From the NCBI GenBank assembly GCA_017381015.1, contig JAFOCV010000033.1, positions 1 to 44,912 of the forward strand: a stretch of DNA of 44,912 bases. Direction: 5' to 3'. Position numbers and translations under genes: made by a program. This DNA comes from Bacteroidaceae bacterium. GTDB lineage: Bacteria; Bacteroidota; Bacteroidia; Bacteroidales; Bacteroidaceae. Below the pieces are notes generated by a model. The model did no database searches and was not told the origin of the DNA. It worked only from the letters and a program-made list of their open reading frames with translations. Below are positions 397-17,946 of the stretch, piece by piece; within the stretch, counting starts at the first letter, position 1, and every line of letters starts with the position of its first letter.

Positions 397-1236
397 CTAT
401 AAAAATTTTTTCTTCAAAATTTCATTAATCTTCGTTGCATCACCATACTCACAAGGAGAATCATACGGCCTATCAGGGAAAGCACCATACTCCAACTTAA
501 TATCCAAACCATTATCCTTGATAAACTGCTCAACACGCTCTGCCAAAGAGATTGGCTCCCCCTTGCAGACATTGATGATTCCAATTATCTCGTTCTGCAT
601 AACAGCAGCAGAAATCAAATGCGCAAGTTCATCAACAGTAATGAAGTCATACTTATTTTTTCCAGTAGTAAATGGGAACGTTTTCTTACCCTCATCAGCA
701 GCATTGAGCAACTTGCAGAAGATAGAGTTATTCTTTCTGTCATCCCCCAAAATATAGTAAGCACGAAGCCACTGAAGGATGCACCCCTTCTGTGCTGTAT
801 ATTGGATCATAGCTCTACGAAGAGCATCCTTTGCAATACCATACATAGAGATAGGGTTACAAGGTGTATTCTCATCAATTGCACCTTCCCAATAGCCAAC
901 TTCATGCATAGTACCCATAACAGCCAACTGCTTCAAGCCTCCATCAATCATAGCAGTCATGAAGTTATAATGAGCAGACATATCTCCCATCTGAGTAGGA
1001 GCATTGTGAACAAAACCATTTCTCCAAGCCATATGGAGACACACATCTGGTGAACCCAACAGTTCCCATACGTTGCCCTCTGGTAATTCAAAAAGATTGA
1101 GCGAGTGGCATTCCGCACGCTCATCCACATCATTACAAACTATATCACAAGCAATAACTTCTGCACCTTTATCAAGAAGCGCCTTAACCACATGACGGCC
1201 GATATAACCATTGGCTCCTGTTACTAATATTTTCAT
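397..1236 (-). CDS. NAD(P)-dependent SDR sugar dehydratase/epimerase/reductase
   Basis: This 279-residue extended short-chain dehydrogenase has the nucleotide motif TGANGYIG at residues 6-13 and a catalytic YGIAK around residue 130. It overlaps the upstream SDR gene by 4 bp (ATGA), which suggests translational coupling. The family makes nucleotide-linked deoxysugars by oxidation, epimerisation or 4-keto reduction. The neighbours make dTDP-4-keto-6-deoxy sugars and no rfbD is present, so a 4-keto reductase (Tll-type 6-deoxy-L-talose or Fcf1-type D-fucose route) is an attractive inference. The sequence alone does not fix the substrate. The C-terminus is complete, ending in EILKKKFL. Confidence 0.8.
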   Translation of the reverse strand: MKILVTGANGYIGRHVVKALLDKGAEVIACDIVCNDVDERAECHSLNLFELPEGNVWELLGSPDVCLHMAWRNGFVHNAPTQMGDMSAHYNFMTAMIDGGLKQLAVMGTMHEVGYWEGAIDENTPCNPISMYGIAKDALRRAMIQYTAQKGCILQWLRAYYILGDDRKNNSIFCKLLNAADEGKKTFPFTTGKNKYDFITVDELAHLISAAVMQNEIIGIINVCKGEPISLAERVEQFIKDNGLDIKLEYGAFPDRPYDSPCEYGDATKINEILKKKFL

Positions 1237-2372
1237 TTATATAGACCTTTTAGTTTCATTTCCTCTATTGAGGCTTCGTATTTATCTTCTTGGATCTCTT
1301 GCTGATTTACCCAATTGGTGAACTGCTCTATACCTTGAGAGAAACTCCACCTGGGTTCGAAGCCTAAGATATTTCGAGCAAGAGTTATATCAGCATAGTT
1401 ATGACGGATGTCGCCTAAGCGATAATTTCCACTTATGGTTATAGGAACTTCTATTCCGTATTTTTCGCATAGTGTATTGGCTACAGTCAACACATCGGTT
1501 GCAACACCAGTACCCACATTGAATACATGACCATTTGCTTCTGGAACTTCTAGACCAAGGATGGTAGCATCTACTACATCGTCAATATAGACAAAGTCAC
1601 GAGTCTCACGTCCGTCTTCAAATATGTTGATCCCATTAAAGTTCTTTATACGGGTAGAGAATATGCTTATAATACCTGTATAGGGATTAGTGAGAGATTG
1701 CCCCGGGCCATACACATTCTGATAACGAAAGGATACAGACTCAACACCCATAGTCTGACATACCAAGTGAACGAGTTGTCCTTGTACCTGTTTGCTGACG
1801 CCATAAACAGACGATGGGTGAATAGCACTATCCTCTGTGGTCGCAACAAGAGTTACCTTTCCGCCACATTTAGGGCAATGGCAATCGAAATCTCCTTTGG
1901 CCATATCTTCATCCTTGCGATCAGTGGGATAGACATCTCCACACTTCTCACAATGATACTTTCCTTCACCATAAATAGCCCGAGATTCGGCTACAAGGAC
2001 TCGTTTTACACTATGCTTTGTATTGGTGAGAATATCCAGCAAAATTGCTGTTCCTCCAATATTTGTATCTACATACTTCTCAATCTCATACATCGACTGA
2101 CCTGTACCAGTCTCTGCAGCCAAGTGAATAACTGCATCTTGCCCTTCAAGAGCTTTTATCCAGTCTTCACGTGAGGTTACTGAACCTTTGATAAAAGTTA
2201 CTTTATCCTTGATTGACTGATACAATGGAGAAGTCTCTTCCGGATTGTCTCCATGTATTTGTTCTGAAAGTGTATCAAGAACTGTAACCTTATAGCCTTT
2301 TGCTGTTAGCTTCAAAGCAAGGTTAGAACCTATAAATCCTGCTCCTCCTGTGATGAGAATATTTGTTAACAT
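1233..2372 (-). CDS. NAD-dependent epimerase/dehydratase with a cysteine-rich insertion
   Basis: This 379-residue SDR starts with TGGAGFIGSN near residues 9-18 and carries SSVYGVSK, with the YxxxK catalytic pair, near residue 190. Between about residues 139 and 172 it has an insertion with C-x2-C, then C-x-C-x2-C, which looks like a small zinc-ribbon-like knuckle. From memory, such an insertion occurs in epimerases related to WbiB (dTDP-L-rhamnose 4-epimerase). That would give dTDP-6-deoxy-L-talose, but the assignment is tentative. It lies 9 bp downstream of rfbC and overlaps the next SDR by 4 bp, so it belongs to the same deoxysugar operon. Confidence 0.82.
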   Translation of the reverse strand: MLTNILITGGAGFIGSNLALKLTAKGYKVTVLDTLSEQIHGDNPEETSPLYQSIKDKVTFIKGSVTSREDWIKALEGQDAVIHLAAETGTGQSMYEIEKYVDTNIGGTAILLDILTNTKHSVKRVLVAESRAIYGEGKYHCEKCGDVYPTDRKDEDMAKGDFDCHCPKCGGKVTLVATTEDSAIHPSSVYGVSKQVQGQLVHLVCQTMGVESVSFRYQNVYGPGQSLTNPYTGIISIFSTRIKNFNGINIFEDGRETRDFVYIDDVVDATILGLEVPEANGHVFNVGTGVATDVLTVANTLCEKYGIEVPITISGNYRLGDIRHNYADITLARNILGFEPRWSFSQGIEQFTNWVNQQEIQEDKYEASIEEMKLKGLYK

Positions 2373-2381
2373 TTACTCGAA

Positions 2382-2972
2382 CTATGGATAAAGGTTCATA
2401 CTATAATCAAATGGAGAATCGAAGTTCCTTAGGCAAAGGTGGTTGATGTCCTTTTCTGAGAGGATGGCGTTCTCTATAGGAATCTGCCAGTCGATAGCAA
2501 GGGTTTCGTCTTTGATGCTGATGCCTCCGTCGGCCTGGGGGGCATAGAAGTTGTCGCACTTGTACTGGAAGATGGCGGTTTCGCTAAGGACGGCAAAGCC
2601 GTGGGCAAAGCCTCTTGGTACGAAGAACTGGAGGTGATTATCCTCTGTCAGTTCTACTGCCACGTATTGACCGTAGGTTGGACTGCCTTTGCGTATGTCC
2701 ACTGCTACATCGAGCACGGCTCCCTTGACACAACGAACGAGCTTGCTCTGGGTGAATGGTGGGGCTTGAAAGTGTAGTCCTCTCATGACACCGTAGCTGC
2801 TCATGGATTCGTTGTCCTGCACGAATAGTATAGTTTTTCCAAAGTTAGGTATCGCAACTTTTTCATCGAATTCTTTTTGTGAGAAAGATTCAAAAAAATA
2901 GCCTCTCGCATCCCCAAAAATCTTCGGTTCCAAAATTACAACTCCTGGTATTTTTGTCTCTATAACTTCCAT
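2382..2972 (-). CDS. rfbC: dTDP-4-dehydrorhamnose 3,5-epimerase
   Basis: This 196-residue cupin-fold enzyme converts dTDP-4-keto-6-deoxy-D-glucose into dTDP-4-keto-L-rhamnose. Visible family features are the N-terminal PGVVILEPKIFGDARGYFFESF segment positions 9-30, the MRGLHFQ motif with its catalytic histidine near residue 64, the KLVRCVKGAVLDVAVDIR strand, and the FVPRGFAHGFAVLS motif. Length is close to the usual 180-190. It sits one base after the GNAT stop and 9 bp before the Cys-insert SDR. With rfbA and rfbB in the same operon the first three steps of the dTDP-L-rhamnose pathway are present; the fourth enzyme, rfbD, is not seen. Confidence 0.95.
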   Translation of the reverse strand: MEVIETKIPGVVILEPKIFGDARGYFFESFSQKEFDEKVAIPNFGKTILFVQDNESMSSYGVMRGLHFQAPPFTQSKLVRCVKGAVLDVAVDIRKGSPTYGQYVAVELTEDNHLQFFVPRGFAHGFAVLSETAIFQYKCDNFYAPQADGGISIKDETLAIDWQIPIENAILSEKDINHLCLRNFDSPFDYSMNLYP

Positions 2973-2973
2973 T

Positions 2974-3495
2974 TTACTTGGTATTAATGATACTTAATCT
3001 AACAATGTCCTCATATTTCCCATCCGCAGCAAGTGCTTCATCCTTCAATATAGCTTCAGCAGAAAAACCTGCATTCTTAAGAAGTTCGACTTCCTCGGGG
3101 AACTTATAGAACACATACGAATAAACCTTATGCATTCCATATTCATTGAATGCTTTTTCCACAAGTAAGTGAATGGCCTCACTTTGATTTTCAAGCTTCC
3201 ATTCCGTATCAGTACTAGTAAACACGCAAAGTTCGCATCGTTTATTAGTATAATCTATATCTTTAAGATAGACTGTTGCGATTGGATAAGATACTACTGA
3301 AAAGTCTGTATCAATACAATCTACTATAAACTGCTTATATTTACCTGTCTCAATAAAATTTTTATAGAACTCGCGATTACTCTCCTCTGTTATAGTTGCT
3401 CTACTCAAACAATGATTAATCACATTATCATCATTTCGCCACCTTATTAACATTCGAGCGTCATCTAATGTTACTGATCTTAATACTATATTCAT
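2974..3495 (-). CDS. GNAT family N-acetyltransferase
   Basis: The 173-residue product begins MNIVLRSVTLDDARMLIRWRND, the typical start of RimJ/RimL-like and PseH-like GNAT enzymes, and continues with a beta strand/helix pattern and an AEAILKDEALAADGKYEDIVRLS ending at residues 147-169 that fits the C-terminal GNAT strands. It would transfer an acetyl group from acetyl-CoA, most plausibly to an amino sugar given its place between UDP-glucuronate epimerase and rfbC. No aminotransferase gene is visible in the window, so the acceptor sugar is unknown. It is one base upstream of rfbC and more AT-rich than its neighbours. Confidence 0.8.
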   Translation of the reverse strand: MNIVLRSVTLDDARMLIRWRNDDNVINHCLSRATITEESNREFYKNFIETGKYKQFIVDCIDTDFSVVSYPIATVYLKDIDYTNKRCELCVFTSTDTEWKLENQSEAIHLLVEKAFNEYGMHKVYSYVFYKFPEEVELLKNAGFSAEAILKDEALAADGKYEDIVRLSIINTK

Positions 3496-3516
3496 ATTAA
3501 CTCAATATAATTTTAA

Positions 3517-3740
3517 ATAGAAGCCTCTGCCGCTTCAGCTACTGGGGCGTTTCTTATCTTACGAAGGCTCTTTGGTGCTTTGCCGACAATGTGCGCTAAG
3601 GGCGTAAACTCGGTAATCACGGTAAACTCGAAGCGTAACCGAGAACCGACGACAAACCGAGCGCAATCAAGCTTGCTTGGATTGTCGAGGTGCGAAGGAG
3701 GAAAAGCCTACGAAGTAGGATTAACCCGTAACCGCACAAA
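3517..3740 (-). repeat. Coding-like remnant or dispersed palindromic element between GNAT and epimerase genes
   Basis: This spacer is more GC-rich than the genes beside it. On the minus strand one frame stays open for about 60 codons, including EFTPLAHIVGKAPKSLRKI, and stops at a TAA near 3517, but has no start codon. Its centre holds an imperfect hairpin on the plus strand, CAATCAAGC-TT-GCTTGGATTG at 3664-3684. It may be a dispersed intergenic element or a truncated gene tail. I cannot assign a family from sequence alone. Confidence 0.4.
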
Positions 3741-4772
3741 TTATCTGTAAAACTCCTTATACCACTCAGCAAACTTGCGCAAGCCGTCTCTGAGGCTGGT
3801 GCTTGGTTTGAATCCAAAGTCACGCTCAAGGGCAGTGGTATCTGCATAAGTGATAGGCACATCACCTGCCTGCATAGGAACAAGTTCCTTGTGAGCTTCA
3901 AAATCGTAGTCCTGCGGAAGGACACCTGCACGGATAAGTTCTTCCTGAAGGATGATAACGAAGTCCAAGAGGTTCTCGGGTTGGTTATTACCTATATTAT
4001 ATACGGCATAAGGGGGGATGGGCAGTCCGTCTTCTCCTACCTGCTTCTCTGGTGCCTTCATCATCACACGATATACTCCCTCAACAATGTCATCTACATA
4101 AGTGAAATCGCGTTTGCAGTTGCCGTAGTTGAAAATCTGGATCTTTTCGCCCTTTACCAGTTTGTTGGTGAAACCAAAGTAGGCCATGTCGGGACGACCG
4201 GCTGGGCCGTAAACGGTAAAGAAACGGAGACCGGTACTAGGAATGTTGTAGAGCTTGCTATAAGCATGGGCCATGAGTTCGTTACTCTTCTTGGTGGCCG
4301 CATAGAGCGAAACCGGATTGTCAACCTTATCATCGGTGCTGTATGGTATCTTCTTGTTGCTGCCATAGACGCTAGATGAAGAGGCATAGACAAGGTGCTC
4401 TACTTCGTGGTGACGGCAAGCTTCAAGGATGTTATAGAAACCAATTAGGTTAGCTTCTATATAAGCATCGGGGTTAGTGATGCTATAGCGTACACCTGCC
4501 TGTGCTGCAAGGTTCACGACAATCTGTGGCTGATATTTGGTGAAGAGGTCTTCGATGAGCTGTTTATCTGCAATATTTCCCTTTACAAAGATAAAGTGAG
4601 GAAATTGCTTCAACTCTTCCAAGCGGTTTTCCTTGAGACGTACATCGTAGTAGTCGTTCATGTTGTCTATTCCGATGACAGTGTGATCTGGATGGGCTTG
4701 GCAGTATTTCTTCACAAGGTTGGATCCTATAAATCCAGCTGCTCCAGTAATTAATATTGTTTTCATGTTCAT
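3741..4772 (-). CDS. UDP-glucuronate 4-epimerase-like NAD-dependent epimerase
   Basis: This 343-residue SDR has ITGAAGFIGSNL at residues 7-18, the family phrase IDNMNDYYDVRLKENRL near residue 36, the active-site strand YASSSSVYG and the SLYAATKKSNE segment with the YxxxK pair. These fit the CapI/LpsL group that interconverts UDP-glucuronate and UDP-galacturonate. Ugd, encoded at 8838-10262, would supply the substrate. The first ATG at 4772 overlaps the rfbB stop by one base and is preceded by AGGA five bases upstream, which favours it over the ATG six bases further in. Confidence 0.88.
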   Translation of the reverse strand: MNMKTILITGAAGFIGSNLVKKYCQAHPDHTVIGIDNMNDYYDVRLKENRLEELKQFPHFIFVKGNIADKQLIEDLFTKYQPQIVVNLAAQAGVRYSITNPDAYIEANLIGFYNILEACRHHEVEHLVYASSSSVYGSNKKIPYSTDDKVDNPVSLYAATKKSNELMAHAYSKLYNIPSTGLRFFTVYGPAGRPDMAYFGFTNKLVKGEKIQIFNYGNCKRDFTYVDDIVEGVYRVMMKAPEKQVGEDGLPIPPYAVYNIGNNQPENLLDFVIILQEELIRAGVLPQDYDFEAHKELVPMQAGDVPITYADTTALERDFGFKPSTSLRDGLRKFAEWYKEFYR

Positions 4773-5905
4773 TATCGTCCTTTATACATGTCCTGGTAAT
4801 ATTTCTCATACTCACCACTAGTGATGTTATCCATCCATTCTTGGTTATCAAGATACCATCTCACTGTCTTCTCGATACCTTCTTCAAACTGTAATGAGGG
4901 ATTCCAACCAAGCTCACGTTGTAATTTAGATGAATCGATGGCATAACGAGCGTCATGACCTAATCTATCTGTTACATAGGTAATGAGGTCGAGGCTGTAT
5001 CCTTCAGGATTTCCAAGTATCTTATCAACTGTCTTAATCATCACTTTGATAAGATCAATATTTTTCCACTCATTAAATCCACCGATGTTGTAGGTCTCAT
5101 TGATCTTGCCTTTGTGGAAGATGACGTCAATAGCACGTGCATGGTCTTCAACAAAGAGCCAATCACGTACATTTTCACCCTTACCATAGACTGGAAGTGG
5201 CTTGCCGTTGCGGATGTTGTTGATAAACAAAGGAATGAGCTTCTCGGGGAACTGATACGGACCGTAGTTGTTCGAGCAGTTGGTCACGATAGTGGGCATG
5301 CCGTAGGTATCGTGATATGCGCGAACGAAGTGGTCTGAGCTTGCCTTTGATGCACTATATGGTGAGTGAGGATTGTACTTAGTTGTCTCATAGAAGAAAT
5401 CGTCACCGTAAGCCTTGTGACCTTCAGATGAAGCTACAGTCTTGAAAGGAGGCTCAATGCCTTCTGGATGGTTCATTGAAAGAGCACCATATACCTCGTC
5501 TGTCGAGATATGATAGAATCTCTTACCTTCGTACTTCTCAGGAAGCGACTCCCAGTACAACTTAGCAGCCTGCAGAAGAGAAAGAGTACCCATTACATTT
5601 GTCTTAGCGAATGTAAAAGGATCCTTGATTGAGCGGTCTACGTGTGACTCAGCAGCAAGATGGATAATTCCATCAATCTTCTCGTCCTGCATCAACTGAT
5701 AAAAGGCGTCAAAATCACAGATGTCCATCTTGACAAACCTATAGTTTGGTTTGTCTTCAATGTCCTTCAAGTTGACCAAGTTACCAGCATAAGTCAACTT
5801 ATCCAAATTAATGATATTATATTCTGGGTATTTATTGACAAAGAGGCGTACTACATGGCTACCAATGAAACCTGCTCCTCCGGTGATTACTATATTGCGT
5901 TTCAT
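4772..5905 (-). CDS. rfbB: dTDP-glucose 4,6-dehydratase
   Basis: This 377-residue extended SDR dehydrates dTDP-glucose to dTDP-4-keto-6-deoxy-glucose. It has ITGGAGFIGSHVV near residues 6-18, LAAESHVDRSI near residue 83, the dehydratase signature STDEVYG near residue 134 (with the catalytic Asp-Glu pair), and SPYSASKASSDH with YxxxK near residue 181. NCSNNYGPYQFPEKLIPL is also diagnostic. It lies 48 bp downstream of rfbA and shares one base with the following epimerase gene. Confidence 0.96.
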   Translation of the reverse strand: MKRNIVITGGAGFIGSHVVRLFVNKYPEYNIINLDKLTYAGNLVNLKDIEDKPNYRFVKMDICDFDAFYQLMQDEKIDGIIHLAAESHVDRSIKDPFTFAKTNVMGTLSLLQAAKLYWESLPEKYEGKRFYHISTDEVYGALSMNHPEGIEPPFKTVASSEGHKAYGDDFFYETTKYNPHSPYSASKASSDHFVRAYHDTYGMPTIVTNCSNNYGPYQFPEKLIPLFINNIRNGKPLPVYGKGENVRDWLFVEDHARAIDVIFHKGKINETYNIGGFNEWKNIDLIKVMIKTVDKILGNPEGYSLDLITYVTDRLGHDARYAIDSSKLQRELGWNPSLQFEEGIEKTVRWYLDNQEWMDNITSGEYEKYYQDMYKGR

Positions 5906-5953
5906 TTATAATGTATGATTATGATGTATGATTATAATGTATGATGTATAATT
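5906..5953. repeat. Short ATG-rich direct repeat between rfbA and rfbB
   Basis: The 48-bp gap between the two rfb genes consists almost wholly of three to four imperfect copies of a 13-17-bp unit built on ATAATGTATGATTATG. It contains several ATG triplets and little resembling a ribosome site. Slippage is the simplest explanation. Confidence 0.6.
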
Positions 5954-6859
5954 TTATTCAAGATTGGGTTTTCCAGTTTCTTTGAGTTCTTCAATTACCT
6001 TGAGAAGATACTGGCCGTATTGGTTCTTAATCATTGGTTGTGCAAGTTCGCGCATACGCTCTTCTGTGATCCAACCCTGACGGTATGCAATGCCCTCAAG
6101 ACAAGCGATCTTAAGACCTTGGCGTTTTTCAAGAACCTCGACGTATGTTGAGGCTTCTGATAGAGAGTCGTGGGTTCCTGTGTCAAGCCATGCAAAGCCA
6201 CGACCGAGGGTCTGGACCTTGAGTTCTCCGTCTTTGAGGAATTCCTGGTTTACTGTGGTTATTTCATATTCGCCACGTGCTGATGGTTTTATGTTAGCAG
6301 CAACATCTACTACTTTGTTGGGATAGAAGTACAAACCTACTACAGCATAGTTAGATTTTGGCTGGGCTGGCTTTTCCTCAATGCTAAGACAGTTACCGTC
6401 TTTATCAAATTCAGCTACACCATATCTTTCTGGGTCGTTTACCCAGTAGCCGAATACGGTTGCCTTCTTTTCTTCGTCTGCAGTACGTACAGCCTCCTTG
6501 AGCATCCTTGTAAAACCAGCACCATGGAAAATGTTGTCACCTAACACAAGGCATGCGCTATCATCACCGATAAAGTCTGCACCAATGGTAAAGGCTTGTG
6601 CCAAGCCATCTGGACTGGGCTGCTCGGCATATTCGAAGTGTACTCCATAATCGGAGCCATCGCCAAGAAGACGCTTAAAGCCTGGAAGGTCATGCGGAGT
6701 GGAGATGATAAGGATATCTCTGATACCCGCCAACATTAACACTGAGATGGGGTAATAAACCATCGGTTTGTCATAGATGGGCATCAACTGCTTACTGATA
6801 CCTTTGGTAATGGGGTACAATCTGGTACCACTGCCACCGGCTAGGACGATTCCTTTCAT
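5954..6859 (-). CDS. rfbA: Glucose-1-phosphate thymidylyltransferase
   Basis: This 301-residue enzyme joins dTTP and glucose-1-phosphate to make dTDP-glucose, the first step of the dTDP-deoxysugar pathway. The N-terminus [18 protein letters not shown] carries the GGxGTRL nucleotidyltransferase motif. [12 protein letters not shown] near residue 107, the EEKP motif near residue 160 and [16 protein letters not shown] near residue 218 are family hallmarks. Length is typical (about 290-300). It is the first gene of an uninterrupted minus-strand run ending in the flippase, and about 1.1 kb of repeat-rich DNA lies upstream. Confidence 0.97.
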
Positions 6860-7957: not shown

Positions 7958-8767
7958 ATGTTCAAATTAAAAAACATTAACACCAATAAGCTACGCAATG
8001 ACGAGCTATTGGGCGTTCTGCAGGAAACGCTGGAATTTAGTGTTGCTCTCCTCAGTAATGAGAGAGATGCGAGTGTATTAACAATGTTTAGAAGTGCTGT
8101 GGAAGAGTACAGGGATGCACTGATGCAAAACTTCTATACAAAAGAGACTAAAGCTAAAGACGAGGCTGATAAGATTGCTTGTGAACAGTATCGAGGTCTA
8201 AAGCATTTAGTAAAGAGTATGTTATTGCATCCTGATAAGTCTGTGAGACTTTTAGCTCAAGATGTAATGCATATAATCTACAAGCATGGTAAGATCATAC
8301 ACTCTTCAATGGCTCATAGGTATGCCAAATTAGATGAGATGATGTGCGAGATTAATGCTTTGGGGAGCGATGTGCATAGTGCACTCGGTATTGAAACTTG
8401 GTTGGAGGAACTAACCCTTGCTATTGCCAAGTATAAGGTAGCGCGTGATGTTCAGAGAAAAGAACGTGTTGAATATCAAAAGGGTTGGGTATCAGAAAGC
8501 CGTGCACGTTCCGAAGTAGCCTTGAGAGAGCTGACTGAGACTGTCAATGCTCACCGAATCTCTTTTGGGGAAGAGGATTATAAGGATTGGGTGAAGAATC
8601 TAAATGCTGTAGCTGAGCTACAGAAATCTATCATCAAGTCGCGCGCCTCTCGTACAGAGGAGGCAGAGGAAGCAGAGAAACCTACTACTGAGGATGAACA
8701 ATCACCTAATGACGAACAGAAAGAGCCTTCGCAAGAGGAGGTAGAGGATTCTGCTACTGCGGAGTAA
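7958..8767 (+). CDS. DUF6261 family protein
   Basis: The 269-residue product looks mostly alpha-helical, with no signal peptide or membrane segment. It resembles the Bacteroidetes family DUF6261 (start MFKLKNINTNKLRNDE, then ALGIETWLEELTLAIAKYK mid-protein). The last 45 residues are very acidic and low-complexity (EEAEEAEKPTTEDEQ and similar). The function of the family is unknown to me. It is the only plus-strand gene inside the polysaccharide locus, has its own strong terminator 6 bp downstream, and faces ugd tail to tail. It may be a later insertion into the locus. Confidence 0.75.
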   Translation: MFKLKNINTNKLRNDELLGVLQETLEFSVALLSNERDASVLTMFRSAVEEYRDALMQNFYTKETKAKDEADKIACEQYRGLKHLVKSMLLHPDKSVRLLAQDVMHIIYKHGKIIHSSMAHRYAKLDEMMCEINALGSDVHSALGIETWLEELTLAIAKYKVARDVQRKERVEYQKGWVSESRARSEVALRELTETVNAHRISFGEEDYKDWVKNLNAVAELQKSIIKSRASRTEEAEEAEKPTTEDEQSPNDEQKEPSQEEVEDSATAE

Positions 8768-8837: not shown

Positions 8838-10262
8838 TTAATCTCGGCGGAAAATATCGCGGGTGTATACTTTGTCTTGTACGTCGTCAAGGCATGCATC
8901 GTAACGATTCGCGATGATGGCTTGAGATTTAGCTTTGAATTCTTCCAAATTATTTACGACCTTACTACCAAAGAAGGTGGTGTCATCTTCGAGGGTGGGT
9001 TCGTAGATTATTATCTCTGCGCCCTTGGCCTTGATGCGTTTCATCACACCCTGAATAGACGACTGACGGAAATTATCTGAGTTGCTCTTCATAGTAAGAC
9101 GGAAAACGCCCACTGTAGGTAGGGTGAGAGCATCTTCATACCCCCTCCGCTCTGCTCGTCCCCCTAACTTAGAGGGACAGTTAAATTGATTGTTTTCAGA
9201 ATAGCCGTACCAGCCAGCAAGTTTGAGGACTTGGTCAGCGATGAAATCCTTACGTGTGCGGTTACTTTCTACGATAGCAGACATCATATTCTGAGGTACG
9301 TCCTGATAGTTGGCAAGCAACTGCTTGGTGTCCTTGGGAAGGCAGTAGCCACCATAACCGAAGCTGGGGTTGTTGTAATGTGTGCCGATGCGTGGATCAA
9401 GGCCAATACCTTGGATGATGGCTTGTGGGTCAAGACCTTTGACCTCTGCATAGGTATCCAGCTCGTTGAAGTAGCTGACACGGAGGGCCAAATAGGTGTT
9501 GGCGAAGAGCTTCACAGCTTCTGCTTCCTTCAAACCCATGAAAAGCAAAGGGATACCCTTGTATTCCTGATTAGCGTTTTGCGACGAGCGATTAGCGAAA
9601 AAGTCAAATTCTTCACCATTGCCGATTGCTCCTTGTACTAGTAGGTGAGCGAAAGTATGTGCAGCCTTTTCCAGACGTTCTACATCAGCAATAGCATTAA
9701 TTGCTTCGTTTTCTTCTCCAAATTGTTCAATCATCTTGGGATAGCCCACTATGATACGACTGGGATAGAGATTGTCATATAGGGCTTTGCTCTCGCGCAA
9801 GAATTCTGGTGAGAAAAGGAGGTTGAATTTCTTGCCTTGCAATGCTGGTTCTGTAGCGAAGCGTTGTGCATAGCGAACATAGAGGCTACGAGTATATCCT
9901 ACGGGGATGGTACTCTTGATTACCATCACTGCATCGGGATTATATTGCAAAACAAGGTCGATGACAGCTTCAACGGCAGAGGTGTCGAAGAAGTTCTTCT
10001 GGCTGTCGTAGTTAGTTGGAGCAGCGATGATTACAAACTCTGCATCCTTATATGCTGCTTCAGCATCAAGAGTCGCAGTAAGGTTGAGTTCCTTTTCTGC
10101 GAAGTACTTTTCGATATAGTCGTCCTGGATGGGAGATACACGGCGGTTGATTTTCTCTACCTTTTCAGCCATGATATCCACAGCCATTACTTCATTGTGC
10201 TGGGCAAGAAGGGTTGCCATACTGAGACCGACATAACCGGTACCTGCTACTGCTATTTTCAT
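8838..10262 (-). CDS. ugd: UDP-glucose 6-dehydrogenase with in-frame insertions
   Basis: The enzyme oxidises UDP-glucose to UDP-glucuronate with two NAD+. It shows GTGYVGLS at residues 7-14, APTNYD near residue 81, SPEFLRE near residue 152, and [14 protein letters not shown] with the catalytic cysteine near residue 305. At 474 residues it is about 85 longer than the 388-residue E. coli protein that I recall. The extra sequence lies at about residues 176-200, 213-236 and 345-378. The second and third contain repeat DNA (9567-9598 and 9158-9178). The frame stays open and all catalytic motifs are intact, so the protein is probably functional. A 195-bp repeat-rich gap separates it from the capD-like gene upstream. 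Confidence 0.93.
9158..9178. repeat. Palindromic element inside ugd
   Basis: GTCCCCCTAA-C-TTAGAGGGAC forms a 10-bp stem with one mismatched pair inside the ugd reading frame. On the coding strand it is read as [15 protein letters not shown], a stretch absent from ordinary Ugd proteins as I remember them. It appears to be an in-frame palindromic insertion. Confidence 0.7.
9567..9598. repeat. Intergenic repeat word inside ugd
   Basis: The sequence gattagcgttttgcgacga followed by gcgattagcgaaa matches the gattagcg/gacgagcg words that fill the spacers of this locus. Here it is translated in frame as part of [14 protein letters not shown] at about residues 219-232. Confidence 0.7.
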
Positions 10263-10456
10263 ATAATATGCAATTGTATGTTATTTCTATTGTATTTGAG
10301 TTTTAATGTCTCTAGAGTCATAAAGTCTCTAAGGTCATTTATTTTCAATTAGAGACGAGCGATGAGCGATTAGCGAGAAACTAGGAGGACCTAGGAGAAT
10401 CTAGGAGGCTCTAGGAAAGCGATGAGCGAGAGAGACGAGCGTTAAACGCTAAACGC
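10263..10456. repeat. Repeat-rich spacer between capD-like gene and ugd
   Basis: The 194 bp hold gtctctagagtcataaagtc, gagacgagcgatgagcgatt, and a run of ctaggaggacctaggagaat-type words at 10380-10417, then nested copies of acgctaaacgctcatcgctcgtc. The last copy runs into the capD-like coding region and supplies its stop codon. No promoter was recognised. Confidence 0.75.
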
Positions 10457-12367
10457 TCATCGCTCGTCGAGAATCTCGTACTTGGAGTGTTGGCTCTTGT
10501 ACTCGGGGACTATTTCCTTCATGATGCGGACGATGGACATGTCGTCGAAGGTGTAGGAGGCTTCGCGCAGGCGGTCCTCATTGGCGACAGCGAGGTCATA
10601 ATCGTACTCGCGAACGGAGGCTATCATGATCTTGGGGTGTCTCGTTGGTTTGGTCTGCTCCTTGTCGGAGAGGACTTCCTCGTATAGCTTTTCGCCTTCT
10701 CGGAGGCCTGAGAACTTGATTTCTATGTTCTGTGCTCCTGAGAGTTTTATCATGCGCTTGGCGAGGTCTACTATCTTGACGGGTTGTCCCATATCGAAGA
10801 CGTAGATTTCACCTCCCTTGCCCATGGTGCCTGCTTCGAGTACGAGGCGGCAGGCTTCGGGAATGAGCATGAAGAAGCGAATGATATCGGGATGGGTGAC
10901 GGTGATGGGACCGCCCTTCTTTATCTGTTCCTTGAAGATGGGGATAACACTACCATTGCTACCGAGGACATTGCCAAAGCGGGTGGTGACGAACTGGGTG
11001 ATACCCTTTACCTTGCCTTCTACGATGGCTTTGTTGAGCGACTGGCAGTAGATTTCGCAGATACGCTTGGAGCAACCCATGACGTTGGTGGGGTTGACGG
11101 CCTTGTCAGTAGATATCATCACGAACTTCTTGGTTTCGAACTTTACAGCAAGGTCGGCTATGACGCGTGTACCATATATATTATTCTGTACGGCAATGGC
11201 TGGATTGTCTTCCATCATGGGTACGTGCTTGTAAGCTGCTGCATGGAAGACATAATCGGGACGATGGTGTGAGAAGATTTGCTCCATGTGTTCCTTGTTG
11301 GCAATGCTGCTTACGATGGTTTCGCATTTGATGTCAGGGAACTGGCGTGACATCATGAGACGGATGTCGTGCATGGGAGTCTCTGCCTGGTCGATGAGTA
11401 CCATGAAGGCTGGACGGAAGGTGGCTACCTGGCGTACCATCTCTGAACCGATAGAACCTGCAGCACCAGTGATAAGGATAACCTTGTCACGTAGTTGATT
11501 ACCAATGGCTTGGAGGTCTACTTCGATCTTATCACGGGGAAGGAGGTCTTCAATGTCTACTTCGCGAAGGTTGTGGTGTGTGAGTTCGCTGGTGCCATCC
11601 CATTCCTCAGCTGAGGGCATCATCATGATATGTATGCCGGCTGAGAGGAATTCGTCTACCATCTCTGTATTCTGGCGGAAGAGTTCGCTCTTGAGGGGTG
11701 ATACAAGGAGGGTGGTGACACCCAGGGCTTTCATCTTATCTGCGATACCTTGCTGATTGAGGTATACCTTCTTACCCAGTAGTTTAACATCTGCCATCTC
11801 CTTGCCATCGGTGATGAAGGCTTCGAGACGATACTGTTTAACCTTGAGTGATGTGAGGCTCTTGGCCAGGCTGATACCTCCGGCTTTGGTGCCATAAATG
11901 GCAACTGGGCTTGCACCATCGGTATGAAAGTCGTCAAAGAGGCGCTTTACCATTATACGTTCTATCCACATAAACATGGTAGCAACGAAGAACAGTATTA
12001 CACTGCCCATAGGGCCTGGGAGTGATATGCAGGCGATAGTAGAGGTCAGGAACCATGCTACTACGCAGAGTACTGTGCCTGCCAGTGATGCCAGAACGAT
12101 ACGCTGAAGGTCAACGAAGGATGAATAACGTATGATGCCGCGATAGGTCTTGAAGGCATAGAAGGGAATGATATAAAGTACTACGCAGAGGAGTGAGCCT
12201 AGTAGCATGGGGAGGAATGATTCTACCTGATGCACCAGGTTTATCTCAAAGTACTTGGCTACTATGCTTGCAAAGAAGACGATGAGACTATCCAGGACGA
12301 GGACGCCCCAGTAGGGCAAGGTCTTTTGGTTAAAGTACCAATCACTTATGTAGGTTATGGATTTCAT
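10457..12367 (-). CDS. Membrane-anchored nucleoside-diphosphate sugar 4,6-dehydratase (CapD/WbpM/FlaA1 family)
   Basis: This 636-residue protein has four hydrophobic segments in its first 135 residues, a Rossmann-like CoA-binding region around residues 150-250, and a catalytic SDR domain beginning at ITGAAGSIGSEMVR near residue 299. HAAAYKHVPMMEDNP and ISTDKAVNPTNVMGCSKR near residue 417 are hallmarks of UDP-HexNAc 4,6-dehydratases, which usually make a UDP-4-keto-6-deoxy-HexNAc. Length is normal for the membrane-bound subgroup. The final codons (LDER, stop) are read from repeat DNA shared with the downstream spacer. It is the first enzyme gene after the regulators. Confidence 0.93.
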   Translation of the reverse strand: MKSITYISDWYFNQKTLPYWGVLVLDSLIVFFASIVAKYFEINLVHQVESFLPMLLGSLLCVVLYIIPFYAFKTYRGIIRYSSFVDLQRIVLASLAGTVLCVVAWFLTSTIACISLPGPMGSVILFFVATMFMWIERIMVKRLFDDFHTDGASPVAIYGTKAGGISLAKSLTSLKVKQYRLEAFITDGKEMADVKLLGKKVYLNQQGIADKMKALGVTTLLVSPLKSELFRQNTEMVDEFLSAGIHIMMMPSAEEWDGTSELTHHNLREVDIEDLLPRDKIEVDLQAIGNQLRDKVILITGAAGSIGSEMVRQVATFRPAFMVLIDQAETPMHDIRLMMSRQFPDIKCETIVSSIANKEHMEQIFSHHRPDYVFHAAAYKHVPMMEDNPAIAVQNNIYGTRVIADLAVKFETKKFVMISTDKAVNPTNVMGCSKRICEIYCQSLNKAIVEGKVKGITQFVTTRFGNVLGSNGSVIPIFKEQIKKGGPITVTHPDIIRFFMLIPEACRLVLEAGTMGKGGEIYVFDMGQPVKIVDLAKRMIKLSGAQNIEIKFSGLREGEKLYEEVLSDKEQTKPTRHPKIMIASVREYDYDLAVANEDRLREASYTFDDMSIVRIMKEIVPEYKSQHSKYEILDER

Positions 12368-12600
12368 ATGACTTTTTAATCGATTAACGACGAGAGATTA
12401 GCGATTAACGAGGAGCTAGGAGGAGCTAGGAGGAGCTAGGAAGCTCTAGGAAATTCTAGGAGGCTCTAGGATATAGAGGATAGAGATGAGCGATGAGTGA
12501 CGAGCGTTTAGCGACTAGTGACAGTGTTTATATTAACAACAGATGACACGGATGAAACTGTTTCTTTTCTCACGCTAAGGCGCAAAGAGGCGCAAAGGAG

Positions 12601-12711
12601 ATTTGATAACTCATTGCTCTTAATACCTGAAATCACCCAAACAAGCTTGGTGATATTCATCTATTAATACCAATTGACTACGTCTTAGCTTCTTTTGAAG
12701 CGTTATCAAAT
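12601..12711. repeat. 111-bp inverted-repeat element, copy 1
   Basis: The element is bounded by perfect 10-bp inverted repeats ATTTGATAAC / GTTATCAAAT. Inside are ATCAC...GGTGAT around a CAAGCTTG palindrome and a GCTTC-TTTT-GAAGC hairpin. Copies 2 and 3 lie at 14113-14223 and 15985-16094. About 8 differences separate copies 1 and 3. It could be a small non-autonomous mobile element or a structured RNA. Confidence 0.85.
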
Positions 12712-12974
12712 TAGGGTAAAGGCAAACGTGTCTAAATTCGTGTCCATATGTTGTGCGTAGCTGCGACACACATCCCAAACAGAGGATAGGAAATAATATC
12801 GTGTTACATCGGGTATAAGTTCGGTTGATAAAATTAAGACCTTGTATTCAAGAGAATTATGTTAACAACGCGACTATACTCGATTAACGACTAACGATTA
12901 GAGATGAGCGACATTGTTATTCTTATTCTTTGTTTCACGCAAAGGCGCAAAGAAGCGCGAAGAAAGATTGGTGT

Positions 12975-13091
12975 CAAGCGGATGGATTATGTTATTTCAT
13001 AACGTATGACGGTGTCATTGCCGCGATTGTGATAGCCTAATTCAAATTCATTTGATTATGCTTTCTCAAAAGCTTTACATCTATCCGCTTG
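12975..13091. repeat. 117-bp element bounded by CAAGCGGAT / ATCCGCTTG
   Basis: Perfect 9-bp inverted repeats bound a 117-bp stretch. Like the 111-bp element, it follows directly after a cacgcaaaggcgcaaagaag word, so it occupies the same slot in the mosaic. Only one copy is visible here. Confidence 0.55.
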
Positions 13092-13239
13092 GATGTTGAA
13101 TTATATTTGCTCTTAAACCTCACGTAAAGTGTCGTTTTCGACGAGCGACTAGCGATTAGAGATTAGAGATTAGCGAGGTTTTAGGAAATCCTAGGGAGAT
13201 TTCTGAGAAATCTGAGGGGCGTATAGGCGCTTTGGGGCG

Positions 13240-13770
13240 CTATTCCACTGGGGTGAGTTGATGCTTGGGGACGTAGGTAGTGGCATACGAGATGATGCCG
13301 GGGATGCTGACTACTACGCGGGTTTGGGTGTGGATGCGTGCCACACGGCCTATGATGCCCTTGAAGGGGCCGTCGGTGACCTGTACCATGCCGCCGGGGC
13401 GGTAGTGTATCTCGTCGTCGGTGACGGAATATGATTGTGGTATGCTACATTCTACTACACGAATGAGGTTGTTCATTGCTTCCTGGGGAATAGTGAGTGG
13501 AGTAGATGTATTGGGGGCGGTGTTGTCGTAAACGAACTGAAGCCTGCCAGACTTTTGGGCTGCGATAGAGTCGTGTATCTCATCATAGGTGGCATGCAGA
13601 AAGAGCAGGTCGGGACGAGAGGGGACTTGCTGCCATAGCTTCTCCTCGCCAAGGGTGGTGGCGCGGTATTCCAAGGGGGTAAAGGCTTGTATACCTTTAT
13701 CCGAGAATGCTTGTGCCTGGGATAATGCGTTGTTATCGGGGCAGCGGAGGACGTACCAGCGGGGGAGCAT
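13240..13770 (-). CDS. UpxY-type transcription antiterminator (NusG-like), second copy
   Basis: The 176-residue product has a NusG N-terminal-like domain (PRWYVLRCPDN at the start, PDLLFLHATYDE near residue 53) and a C-terminal KOW motif (PGGMVQVTDGPFKGIIGRVARI, residues 126-147). In B. fragilis each capsule locus starts with such an UpxY, which is recruited in the 5' leader and lets polymerase read the long operon. Here it is the second upxY-like gene of the locus and has no upxZ directly after it. Its start codon abuts gattagagatgagcg repeats, and no Shine-Dalgarno site is evident. It may act on the downstream sugar genes or be a relic of an earlier locus. Confidence 0.88.
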   Translation of the reverse strand: MLPRWYVLRCPDNNALSQAQAFSDKGIQAFTPLEYRATTLGEEKLWQQVPSRPDLLFLHATYDEIHDSIAAQKSGRLQFVYDNTAPNTSTPLTIPQEAMNNLIRVVECSIPQSYSVTDDEIHYRPGGMVQVTDGPFKGIIGRVARIHTQTRVVVSIPGIISYATTYVPKHQLTPVE

Positions 13771-14580
13771 GATTATTCGATTAGAGATGAGCGATTAGAG
13801 ATGAGCGACTAGCTACTGTGTTTTTATTATTAACAACAGATGACACTGATTACACTGTTTTTTTCAAAGCTATTGCACATTCTTTCACTCGATGTCCACT
13901 CGCAGCTTCGCACGATGGACGACGGATGAACACGGTTTTTAGCTCACGCTATGTATTCGATTAGAGATGAGCGATTAGAGATGAGCGAATGGGTATTCTT
14001 ATTATCAACGAGATTGTACGAGATGTCACTGTTATTATTCTTATTTCACACGGAATGCACAGAACATCACAGAAATATCATCTCACGCAAAGGCGCAAAG
14101 GGCGCGAAGGAGATTTGATAATCCATTGCTCTTAATATCTGAAATCACTCAATCAAGCTTGGTAATGTTCATCTATCAATAACAATAGACTACGTCTTAG
14201 TTTCTTTTGAAACGTTATCAAATCTTGTAAATCGTGTTCAATCCTGTTTTATTCTGTTGATTACTATAAGTCTAACAACGGATTGTTTGAGATTTAACGT
14301 GATTATTTCCTTGTGGATATGAGTTCTTTGTTAGATGTTAATCAAATCTTCGCTTGATTAACGACTGATGGACACTGATGTCGGGAGCCGCTCCTCTCAT
14401 CTTGTTTTAATCTGTTTTTGTGTCGTCGGCACATGCGACACAAATCTGTCTGCCAAAGGCTTTCACTTTACAAAGAACAGTGATATCTAGTTTTATCTGT
14501 TGATTTTATAAAGATTTAGTGTTCAAGAGAATTATGTTAACATCAAGATGGCACGGATGGTACGGTTGTTAGTGAGGCTG
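13771..14580. repeat. Mosaic of dispersed repeats between upxZ and second upxY
   Basis: The 810 bp contain: gattagagatgagcg words at 13775-13812 and 13958-13990; a ttcaaagctattgcacattc block at 13862-13930 that recurs at 16271-16338; a cacgcaaaggcgcaaagggc word at 14093-14110; the 111-bp element copy 2; a GTTAATCAA...TTGATTAAC dyad at about 14337-14365; a TGTGTCG...CGACACA dyad near 14420; and a closing tcaagagaattatgttaac tail. No gene was recognised. Confidence 0.75.
14113..14223. repeat. 111-bp inverted-repeat element, copy 2
   Basis: The same length as copy 1. The left terminal repeat is slightly decayed (ATTTGATAAT) and the right one is intact (GTTATCAAAT). It is the most diverged of the three copies but keeps the caagcttggtaatgttcatc core. 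Confidence 0.8.
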
Positions 14581-14961
14581 TTATATCTCGCCGTTGATGA
14601 TGAGGGAGTACCAGGTGTTGAAGAGGGGGTGGCTTAGGGGCTCGGTGAGGAGCTTAAGGTATTTGGCGGAGGAGTCTTGTGAGGGAGCGGTACTCTTGAT
14701 ACTTTTGAGGTGCGAGGCGGAGATGCTATTGAAAATGATAGGATATGGACGGCCACTGATTTCTATACAAATGGGGGCGTCTACTTGATCTGAGAGTAGT
14801 TGGAGAAGATATGCCGATTTCTCGAAGGCGAACCAGGAGTTGCCAACATGGTAGAGATGAATATTGCATTCATTACAGGCCTCCCTCTGCAGGATGTCGT
14901 TAATATCAGTGAGGATGAGGTGGTCCAACTGCTTCAGTGTTTCAAAAGCGTGACTTTGCAT
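14581..14961 (-). CDS. UpxZ-type antitermination inhibitor
   Basis: The 126-residue product starts MQSHAFETLKQLDHLILTDI and ends NTWYSLIINGEI, which fits the short UpxZ proteins encoded just after upxY in Bacteroides polysaccharide loci. From B. fragilis work, UpxZ proteins block the UpxY of other loci, so that one surface polysaccharide dominates at a time. The gene begins 6 bp after the stop of the upstream upxY and is probably co-translated with it. There are no membrane segments or enzyme motifs. The assignment rests mainly on position, length and general resemblance. Confidence 0.8.
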   Translation of the reverse strand: MQSHAFETLKQLDHLILTDINDILQREACNECNIHLYHVGNSWFAFEKSAYLLQLLSDQVDAPICIEISGRPYPIIFNSISASHLKSIKSTAPSQDSSAKYLKLLTEPLSHPLFNTWYSLIINGEI

Positions 14962-15510: not shown

Positions 15511-15665
15511 TTAAGGAAAGGATGTTGAGGATAGTATATTCTCTTGGCTCCCCGAAGCAGCAGTTTTTAAGCTCTGTTTCAGGCTGTTACGATGCCGTTT
15601 TGTTTTACATGTGTCAAAACATGCTTGTTGAAAATCTCTTGTAATCATCATGGATGAAAATATAG

Positions 15666-15682
15666 ATCTTCTATGAGAAGAT
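15666..15682 (+). repeat. Left inverted repeat of invertible promoter
   Basis: ATCTTCTATGAGAAGAT is itself a dyad (ATCTTCT-ATG-AGAAGAT). Its reverse complement matches the right repeat at 16 of 17 positions. An internal dyad around an asymmetric spacer is expected for a tyrosine recombinase crossover site. Confidence 0.82.
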
Positions 15683-15695
15683 TGATTTTCTGTTG

Positions 15696-15727
15696 CAAAT
15701 TTAACAATATTCCCTGAAATTCACAAA
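15696..15727 (-). promoter_or_regulatory. Promoter of the polysaccharide operon
   Basis: On the minus strand, TTTG (15727-15724) is followed by exactly 20 bases and TAAATTTG (15703-15696), a full match to the Bacteroidetes -33/-7 consensus. Transcription would start near 15688. Confidence 0.8.
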
Positions 15728-15852
15728 TTTAGCTACATCTAATTTCTCTTATCTTTTTAGATTGACTAAAACAAATTGCAAAATGTTTAGCAAATTCATT
15801 ATTAGATGCGGTGATAATTAACTTTAAATCAATCACAAATTTATTTGTGTGT

Positions 15853-15869
15853 ATCTTCTCATAGGAGAT
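15853..15869 (-). repeat. Right inverted repeat of invertible promoter
   Basis: ATCTTCTCATAGGAGAT, inverted relative to the left repeat, with one mismatch (G for A) that also breaks its internal dyad. Beyond the core three of the next five bases also match. Confidence 0.82.
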
Positions 15870-16589
15870 GGATATTTTTTCGATTAACGACGAGGGATTA
15901 GGAATTAACGATTAACGACGAGCGAGGAGTGATTAGCGAAACTGTTTTATATCTCACGCAAAGGCGCAGAGAAGCGCGAAGGAAATTTGATAACTCATTG
16001 CTCTTAATACCTAAAATCACTCAAACAAGCTAGGTGATGTTCATCTATTAATACCAATTGACTGCGTCTTGCTTCTAATGAAGCGTTATCAAATCAGGGG
16101 TAAAGGCAAACGTGTCTAGGTTCCGTTCTGTGTTGTGTGAAACTACGACACAGTCCCAAATAGAGGATGGGAAAACGAGTATATATTCGGGTATAATTTC
16201 GTGTTGATGGAACTAAGACTTAGTATTCAAGAGAATTATATTAACAACACGATGGCACGGATAACACTGTTTTCAAAGCTATTGCACAATTTTTCACTCG
16301 ATGGCCAATCGCAGCTGCGCACGATGGACGACGGATGGCACGGTTATTAGCTTACGCTATATATTTGATTAGCGAGGAACGATTAGAGATTAGCGAAGAG
16401 GAAACTCTAGGAAGCTCTAGGAGGTTCTATGAAATCCTAGGGAGATTTCGGAGGATGAGAGAGGATAATCAAAGGATGAAAGAGGATGAGAGATTAGCGA
16501 GGAACGATTAGAGATTAGAGATTGGCGAAATTCTAGGAGGAGCTAGGAAGGGCTTGGAGATTATGGGGATTATGGGGGATTATATGAGG
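15870..16589. repeat. Mosaic of dispersed repeats between invertible promoter and recombinase gene
   Basis: In order the stretch holds: gattaacgacgagg words (15880-15940); a cacgcaaaggcgcagagaag word (15956-15975); the 111-bp element copy 3 (15985-16094); a tail with gtaaaggcaaacgtgtctag and tcaagagaattatattaac (16099-16250) that matches 12714-12866; a ttcaaagctattgcacaatt block (16271-16338); and gattagcgaggaac, ctaggaagctctagg and gattagagattagag words up to 16560. No gene was recognised. Confidence 0.75.
15985..16094. repeat. 111-bp inverted-repeat element, copy 3 (110 bp)
   Basis: Both 10-bp terminal inverted repeats are perfect (ATTTGATAAC / GTTATCAAAT). It differs from copy 1 by about 7 substitutions and one deleted base. 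Confidence 0.85.
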
Positions 16590-16629
16590 CTGTTGGCGGA
16601 ATTCTGCCTTAAATTAATTCCGCCAACAG
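16590..16629 (-). terminator. Stem-loop after the recombinase gene
   Basis: A perfect 14-bp inverted repeat CTGTTGGCGGAATT / AATTCCGCCAACAG (16590-16603 and 16616-16629) lies 11 bp past the recombinase stop. No T run follows, so it may be a processing or mRNA-stability hairpin rather than a classical terminator. Confidence 0.6.
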
Positions 16630-16640
16630 GTGGGGGTGGG

Positions 16641-17913: not shown

Positions 17914-17946
17914 CAAATATAATGATAAAAGGCCGATTCCAACAAA
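17914..17946 (-). promoter_or_regulatory. Promoter of the recombinase gene
   Basis: On the minus strand TTTG (17946-17943), 21 bases, then TATATTTG (17921-17914) fits the Bacteroidetes consensus and would start transcription about 58 bp before the gene. The -33 element lies in the loop of the dnaG terminator. Confidence 0.6.

Follow-up and report, generated by a model that had tools for sequence, protein, structure and literature searches.

In the gut Bacteroidales, capsule switching bears on phage sensitivity (PMC8375218), and promoter switches of the kind described here have already been published (PMC8748976, PMC11892184, PMC4747536). Invertible promoters that precede upxY genes and are associated with tyrosine recombinases are likewise in print (PMC8748976, PMC11892184), in agreement with the preliminary description of the present locus, which had pointed to such enzymes at some Bacteroides capsule loci; one of these invertases, that of the pMMCAT plasmids, has its place in a published tree (PMC8748976). 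At the capsule loci of B. intestinalis transcription starts within the proximal repeat (PMC8375218), and for the tyrosine recombinase Tsr19 an increasing number of repeats between promoter and gene is reported to weaken transcription (as cited in PMC4747536). These statements and the comparisons made below refer to the available portions of seven reports (PMC12632263, PMC4747536, PMC8375218, PMC11892184, PMC8042965, PMC12056005, PMC8748976).

Here we describe a locus in a window of 44,912 nucleotides, which is the whole stretch of DNA, from a gut bacterium, that was analysed. Along its minus strand lie a dnaG-like primase gene, a tyrosine recombinase gene, 762 bp of non-coding DNA, a repeat, 170 bp, the same repeat in inverted orientation, 146 bp and an upxY gene (Table 1). 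We consider it very probable that the locus is a cis-acting phase-variation switch, worked by the adjacent tyrosine recombinase.

Table 1. Features of the locus, in window coordinates
Feature	Position	Strand	Remarks
Left inverted repeat (predicted crossover site)	15657..15682		outer to inner AAAATATAG-ATCTTCT-ATG-AGAAGAT, a perfect 7+3+7 dyad
Putative invertible segment	15683..15852		170 bp, 25% G+C, bounded by the arms
Right inverted repeat	15853..15878		23 of 26 matches with the left arm; all 3 differences in the outer half
Promoter	15696..15727	-	-33 box TTTG at 15727-15724, 20-nt spacer, -7 box TAAATTTG at 15703-15696
Repeat-rich non-coding stretch	15879..16640		762 bp from the recombinase stop codon to the inverton; dispersed genomic repeats
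Tyrosine recombinase, 402 aa	16641..17849	-	PF13102 and PF00589 above cut-offs
Recombinase promoter	17914..17946	-	consensus TTTG-N21-TATATTTG, outside the invertible segment
upxY, 180 aa	14968..15510	-	NusG-like UpxY-family antiterminator; NF033644, 157 bits (cut-off 100)
126-aa ORF directly after upxY	14581..14961	-	upxZ-like by position only
Second UpxY-family gene, 176 aa	13240..13770	-	114 bits
Presumed target, 636-aa nucleotide-sugar dehydratase-like	10457..12367	-	Polysacc_synt_2 (PF02719)
Presumed target, nucleotide-sugar dehydrogenase family	8838..10262	-	family match
DUF6261 gene	7958..8767	+	breaks the series of polysaccharide genes, which lie on the other strand
Further nucleotide-sugar genes	397..6859	-	nucleotidyl transferase, GDP-mannose dehydratase-like, epimerases, dTDP-sugar isomerase

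The core arms, ATCTTCTATGAGAAGAT at 15666-15682 and ATCTTCTCATAGGAGAT at 15853-15869, match as inverted repeats at 16 of 17 positions and lie 170 bp apart, just as had first been noticed. The length of 17 bp then given holds for the core only, since outward the arms can be extended to 26 bp, of which 23 match (15657-15682 and 15853-15878). Their inner halves and centres are identical, and each arm is in turn a dyad around an asymmetric centre, ATG in one and CAT in the other, the two centres being mutually inverted; the left dyad is free of mismatches and the right one carries a single mismatch, in its outer half. When repeat pairs with 90-350 bp between the arms were ranked by ungapped score, the window pair scored 17, a strength reached neither in 500 shuffles of the surrounding 2-kb region nor in 30 of the whole window (best score 15; all dinucleotide counts preserved in both cases). 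One pair elsewhere in the window scores higher (19; 10354-10375 and 10447-10468, 71 bp apart), and it was rejected as a site of the same type, being a dispersed repeat, GACGAGCGATGAGCGATTAGCG. Three further copies of the 12-mer ATCTTCTCATAG occur in the genome, whose assembly is 84.6% complete; each of them is single and, judging its flanks by eye, apparently in coding sequence, and they were discarded as additional arm sites.

Dispersed repeats are common in the non-coding DNA around the locus (window 12373-13240, 13771-14580 and 15879-16640) and on contig C67 (19000-22500), where they also flank a second tandem upxY pair. The pattern GATTAGAGATTAGCGA, with at most one mismatch, is weakly specific, with 62 genomic occurrences and 43 for the reversed control pattern, while CTCACGCAAAGGCGC occurs 25 times and its control not at all.

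The promoter within the segment is an exact TTTG-N20-TAAATTTG, 13 nt inside the left arm and aimed at upxY, so a consensus scan bears out both the perfect promoter originally described and, judging by its direction, the assignment of the sequenced orientation as ON. The consensus TTTG-N19-21-TAnnTTTG matches three times in the window, 0.5 matches being expected, and only one of 100 shuffles gave three or more. Another consensus match stands 64 nt ahead of the recombinase start codon, and the recombinase therefore appears to have a promoter of its own outside the segment.

The recombinase belongs to the tyrosine type, as the preliminary description had stated, given its score with PF00589 (Phage_integrase; 39.4 bits, cut-off 27.1) and its conserved catalytic residues. 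Its reading frame is intact, and in an alignment of 13 homologues R248, K274, Y345/R348, H371 and Y380 are invariant, the HxxR motif reading YxxR through a tyrosine, Y345, that replaces histidine in all 13. The catalytic roles of R248, K274, R348, H371 and Y380 are presumed from general knowledge of the family. Among the NCBIfam models none for an invertase matched, with only Xer-like and integron-integrase matches below their cut-offs, and a profile search of solved structures returned no PDB chain at E 1e-10.

In the mechanism that we propose, the 402-aa recombinase, made from its own promoter, would bind the two inverted sites of about 26 bp, and recombination within the asymmetric centre would invert the 170 bp between them. 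As assembled, the inner promoter faces upxY (ON); the transcript would start just before the left arm, so that the upxY mRNA would begin with the arm hairpin, and UpxY would let the polymerase continue into the polysaccharide genes. The published data on B. intestinalis and Tsr19 (PMC8375218, PMC4747536), as far as available, fit a window transcript that would start just before or in the arm. In the inverted orientation the promoter would face the 3′ end of the recombinase gene (OFF), and a search of this orientation found no consensus promoter facing upxY.

Since Mpi and Tsr19 act on distant sites in Bacteroides fragilis (PMC4747536), the segment might instead be inverted in trans, by an Mpi-like enzyme or by another tyrosine recombinase. 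However, no protein of the serine recombinase family PF00239 was found in the 84.6%-complete genome, a family that matches in 10 of 14 control genomes, and an Mpi-type serine switch was rejected on these grounds. The sole other homologue of the recombinase found in this genome is a distant protein, 23% identical, encoded on contig C112, and the recombinases of the window's own clade have TCTTCT-type sites next to them, all of which makes the action of a second enzyme hardly credible. Seven UpxY genes of the genome score above the cut-off, and the stretches analysed around those of contigs C67, C93 and C39 contained no inverton scoring above 12. Given the lack of PF00239 matches, the single distant homologue and the lack of another inverton in those stretches, the switch looks local and single in the genome as assembled.

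A wider view is provided by the relatives of the recombinase, which has matches in 107 of 139 genomes of the same genus. The best 40 same-genus places outside the window and the best 80 of 578 relatives from a genome scan gave, once a duplicate had been removed, 120 different loci, the window among them, and repeat pairs (score of at least 13, 90-350 bp between the arms) were sought in those with at least 600 nt available. In the 1.1 kb that follow the recombinase, such a pair was present in 79 of 106 loci among the 120 listed, whereas controls gave 7 of 109 upstream, 2 of 89 at 1.5-2.6 kb downstream and 4 of 318 in block-shuffled downstream stretches; these shuffles permute blocks of dinucleotides without preserving every dinucleotide count, and the loci are mutually related, which makes the counts non-independent. 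Among the 79 pairs a few are not site-like (L080, L088 and L135). Of the 27 loci with no detectable pair, 7 have a recombinase less than 40% identical to that of the window and 5 have one at least 50% identical (L054, L064, L065, L082 and L093). The window's clade has the site dyad TCTTCT-N3-AGAAGA; elsewhere the dyad is mostly TCTCTT-N3-AAGAGA, or close to it.

For the analysis of promoters 77 segments were kept, with scores below 14 left unused and L084, L135 and L137 removed by hand because of arms unlike sites (L088, also listed for removal, fell below the threshold anyway). A TAnnTTTG -7 box lies within 45 nt of an arm in 73 of them, usually 6-15 nt inside, compared with 104 of 1540 shuffled interiors, and the accompanying -33 box is often weaker in the relatives than in the window. 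The box faces the recombinase in 57 segments, faces away from it in 14, is present in both directions in 2 and is missing in 4.

Some cassettes show features of their own. The arm sequence TCTCTATGTAAGAGATACT recurs unchanged and at an equal distance in L102, L106, L114, L123, L134 and L160, which are differently titled records, and this identity suggests horizontal spread of the cassette. Arrays of several sites or two successive repeat pairs are found in L050 (6874-7127, nested arms), L067 (6119-6363, a doubled arm), L171 (5357-5942) and L172 (5236-5772), the successive pairs being those of pMMCAT and of a Phocaeicola massiliensis plasmid. Such arrays and double pairs between recombinase and target could possibly exert a graded, rather than on/off, control.

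The survey also raises two points against a functional switch in the window, namely its imperfect arms (23 of 26), perfect arms of 17-27 bp being found in many relatives, and the 762 bp that separate them from the recombinase, the longest such gap among the loci listed, in which stop codon and first arm are mostly 20-90 bp apart. Both would be expected of a formerly invertible promoter now locked ON because its arm mismatches and the repeat-rich intervening DNA had halted or slowed recombination. But the three mismatches all fall in the outer half, where a central crossover would leave them in place, an arm mismatch is likewise present in L115 of the same upxY clade, good arms persist across gaps of 346 bp (L050) and 380 bp (L128), and the recombinase keeps its frame and catalytic residues. 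Such decay is thus improbable, and a working switch remains our preferred reading.

The orientation of the segments is also informative about inversion. When the 77 interiors were compared all against all, 89 pairs were similar: all 69 pairs of like promoter state align directly and all 15 of opposite state align in reverse, the remaining 5 being pairs of unlike states that involve a segment with both directions or none. Nine of the reverse alignments extend over 88-141 bp, with L057 and L125 as the two inverted lineages; between L055 and L057, which share the same downstream gene, the inversion is visible by eye. The other six (L140 with five relatives, and L092 with L130) span just 30-38 bp and add little, because they may hardly reach beyond the promoter by which the state is defined.

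At strain level there are the pMMCAT plasmids, in which a recombinase 44% identical to that of the window stands ahead of two repeat pairs, and these ahead of upxY and the exopolysaccharide genes. Searching with a 381-bp query that spans the second pair gave 19 matching records, 17 of them at full length and 100% identity and one at 88.7%; in the nineteenth, NZ_CP072238.1, the segment bounded by the arms lies on the opposite strand, that is, it is inverted in one of 18 near-identical copies. Compared directly, NZ_CP072238.1 and NZ_CP072253.1 differ at 139 of 535 positions, and at only one once the segment is turned computationally. From NZ_CP072253.1 to NZ_CP072238.1 the inversion turns the -7 box from facing the recombinase to facing upxY.

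In the light of these inversions, a fixed promoter whose repeats served as a binding site or a 5′-leader hairpin, and not for recombination, seems most unlikely. It would account for the dyad nature of both arms and for the left arm folding as a 7-bp hairpin near the predicted 5′ end of the upxY mRNA, in a 180-nt predicted leader (z -1.84; 6 of 200 shuffles equally or more stable), but it fails to explain the inverted pairs that follow the recombinase in 79 of 106 loci, the promoters facing both ways and the exact pMMCAT inversion.

The window segment itself is known from one assembled copy; a 701-bp query against the 139 same-genus genomes, its own included, found no other full copy, inverted or otherwise. 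Six genomes match this query and, beyond the window, only with pieces of the flanking repeats or with short stretches, two of which span 42-46 bp over the promoter end. The invertible upxY promoter beside its recombinase that had been announced is upheld by the comparative evidence of its family, with its own segment seen in a single orientation. Contig ends lie within 300 nt of the recombinase in 11 of 119 cases downstream and 5 of 119 upstream, a hint of assembly breaks at invertons that was not taken as proof, owing to the small numbers and to some ends without an arm.

The predominance of recombinase-facing promoters admits a more speculative idea: the switch might set its own rate, antisense or colliding transcription from the OFF promoter lowering the recombinase and so prolonging OFF relative to ON. 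Suggested by the geometry and by the 57:14 bias, this feedback would explain why 57 of the 77 assembled cassettes are OFF, and the window, with its 762-bp separation, would then represent a naturally occurring form in which the brake is weaker. We deem it unlikely, and our already low estimate was slightly reduced by the mixed states in the window's clade (5 ON, 4 OFF and 1 both) and by four ON members with gaps of only 28-53 bp. Culture, sampling or kinship may account for the OFF bias instead. In the titles and opening abstract lines of the literature searched, nothing was evidently devoted to an antisense brake on Bacteroides invertases.

Regarding the genes under control, an ORF of at least 100 aa lies within 900 nt downstream in 73 of the 77 segments. 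A tree of 75 of the 77 recombinases (after a length and stop-codon filter) places that of the window in a clade of ten with support 100/94, every member having a UpxY-family ORF as target, and linkage to upxY needs 4 changes on the tree compared with 12.2 in shuffles. The upxY cluster comprises 13 of the 73 targets, 12 of them matched by the window's own UpxY proteins. A further 30 fall in six clusters that match PADLOC models of restriction-modification or defence, one representative having been tested per cluster, and two further representatives gave no PADLOC match.

These defence-like targets include an HKD and SNF2 helicase protein, Type II, IIG and III methyltransferases and BrxC, and their cassettes are L055, L057, L098, L099, L102, L103, L107, L131, L140, L168 and relatives; the papers found that link BREX to invertible promoters each contain few such mentions. 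The target of L051 (2286-5354, minus strand) is a near-full-length SrfB-family protein (PF07520), and that of L159 belongs to the same cluster. Comparison alone shows that the promoter switch of this recombinase family is portable: it mostly measures 140-190 bp, and it precedes upxY in one clade and, in other clades, restriction-modification, BREX-like and helicase genes.

In the window, the first gene past the putative invertible promoter is the UpxY-family antiterminator (NF033644). The ORF that follows in the upxZ position has no Pfam or NCBIfam match; beyond it come the second upxY and a row, reaching to position 397, of mostly nucleotide-sugar genes, with a GNAT acetyltransferase gene (minus strand) among those of 397-6859. 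No glycosyltransferases with Wzx/Wzy were found among the scanned genes left of upxY, in a contig that begins inside the locus. The ‘polysaccharide operon’ of the preliminary description is a presumed one: the minus-strand genes downstream are mostly of nucleotide-sugar type, but the idea of a single operon is weakened by the long non-coding gaps that part them from upxY and by the plus-strand DUF6261 gene within the row.

Among described systems, the closest are the pMMCAT plasmids of gut Bacteroidales (e.g. NZ_CP072253.1), which share with the window the gene order and direction, a recombinase homologous over its full length, short dyad arms and a -7 box near one arm; they differ in having two successive repeat pairs instead of one, in the sequences of the arms and in being plasmid-borne. 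Tsr19 (BF2766) of B. fragilis, with its promoter IVp-I, is also a tyrosine recombinase with an invertible promoter immediately downstream of its own gene, which carries the Bacteroides -7 box TAnnTTTG and precedes exopolysaccharide genes (PMC4747536); it acts in addition on a distant promoter (PMC4747536), whereas the site pair of the window is single in its genome, and the two are likened here without implying sequence kinship. Mpi and the PS loci of B. fragilis offer a parallel in that an invertible promoter heads a capsule locus whose first genes include upxY, although Mpi is a global serine enzyme (PMC12632263, PMC4747536) and no serine recombinase was found in the genome of the window. 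The arms of the window are also unlike the ARACGTTCGTN type given in PMC8375218. The published groups of tyrosine invertases, as far as their descriptions were available, resemble the locus in having the invertase near a Bacteroides-type invertible promoter and oriented beyond its drive, and UpxY genes oriented so that the promoter can drive them, even though the window recombinase matched no NCBIfam invertase model. All in all, the window is an ordinary but well-supported addition to the tyrosine-recombinase capsule switches of the Bacteroidales, extending them to a genome (84.6% complete) in which no serine recombinase was found.
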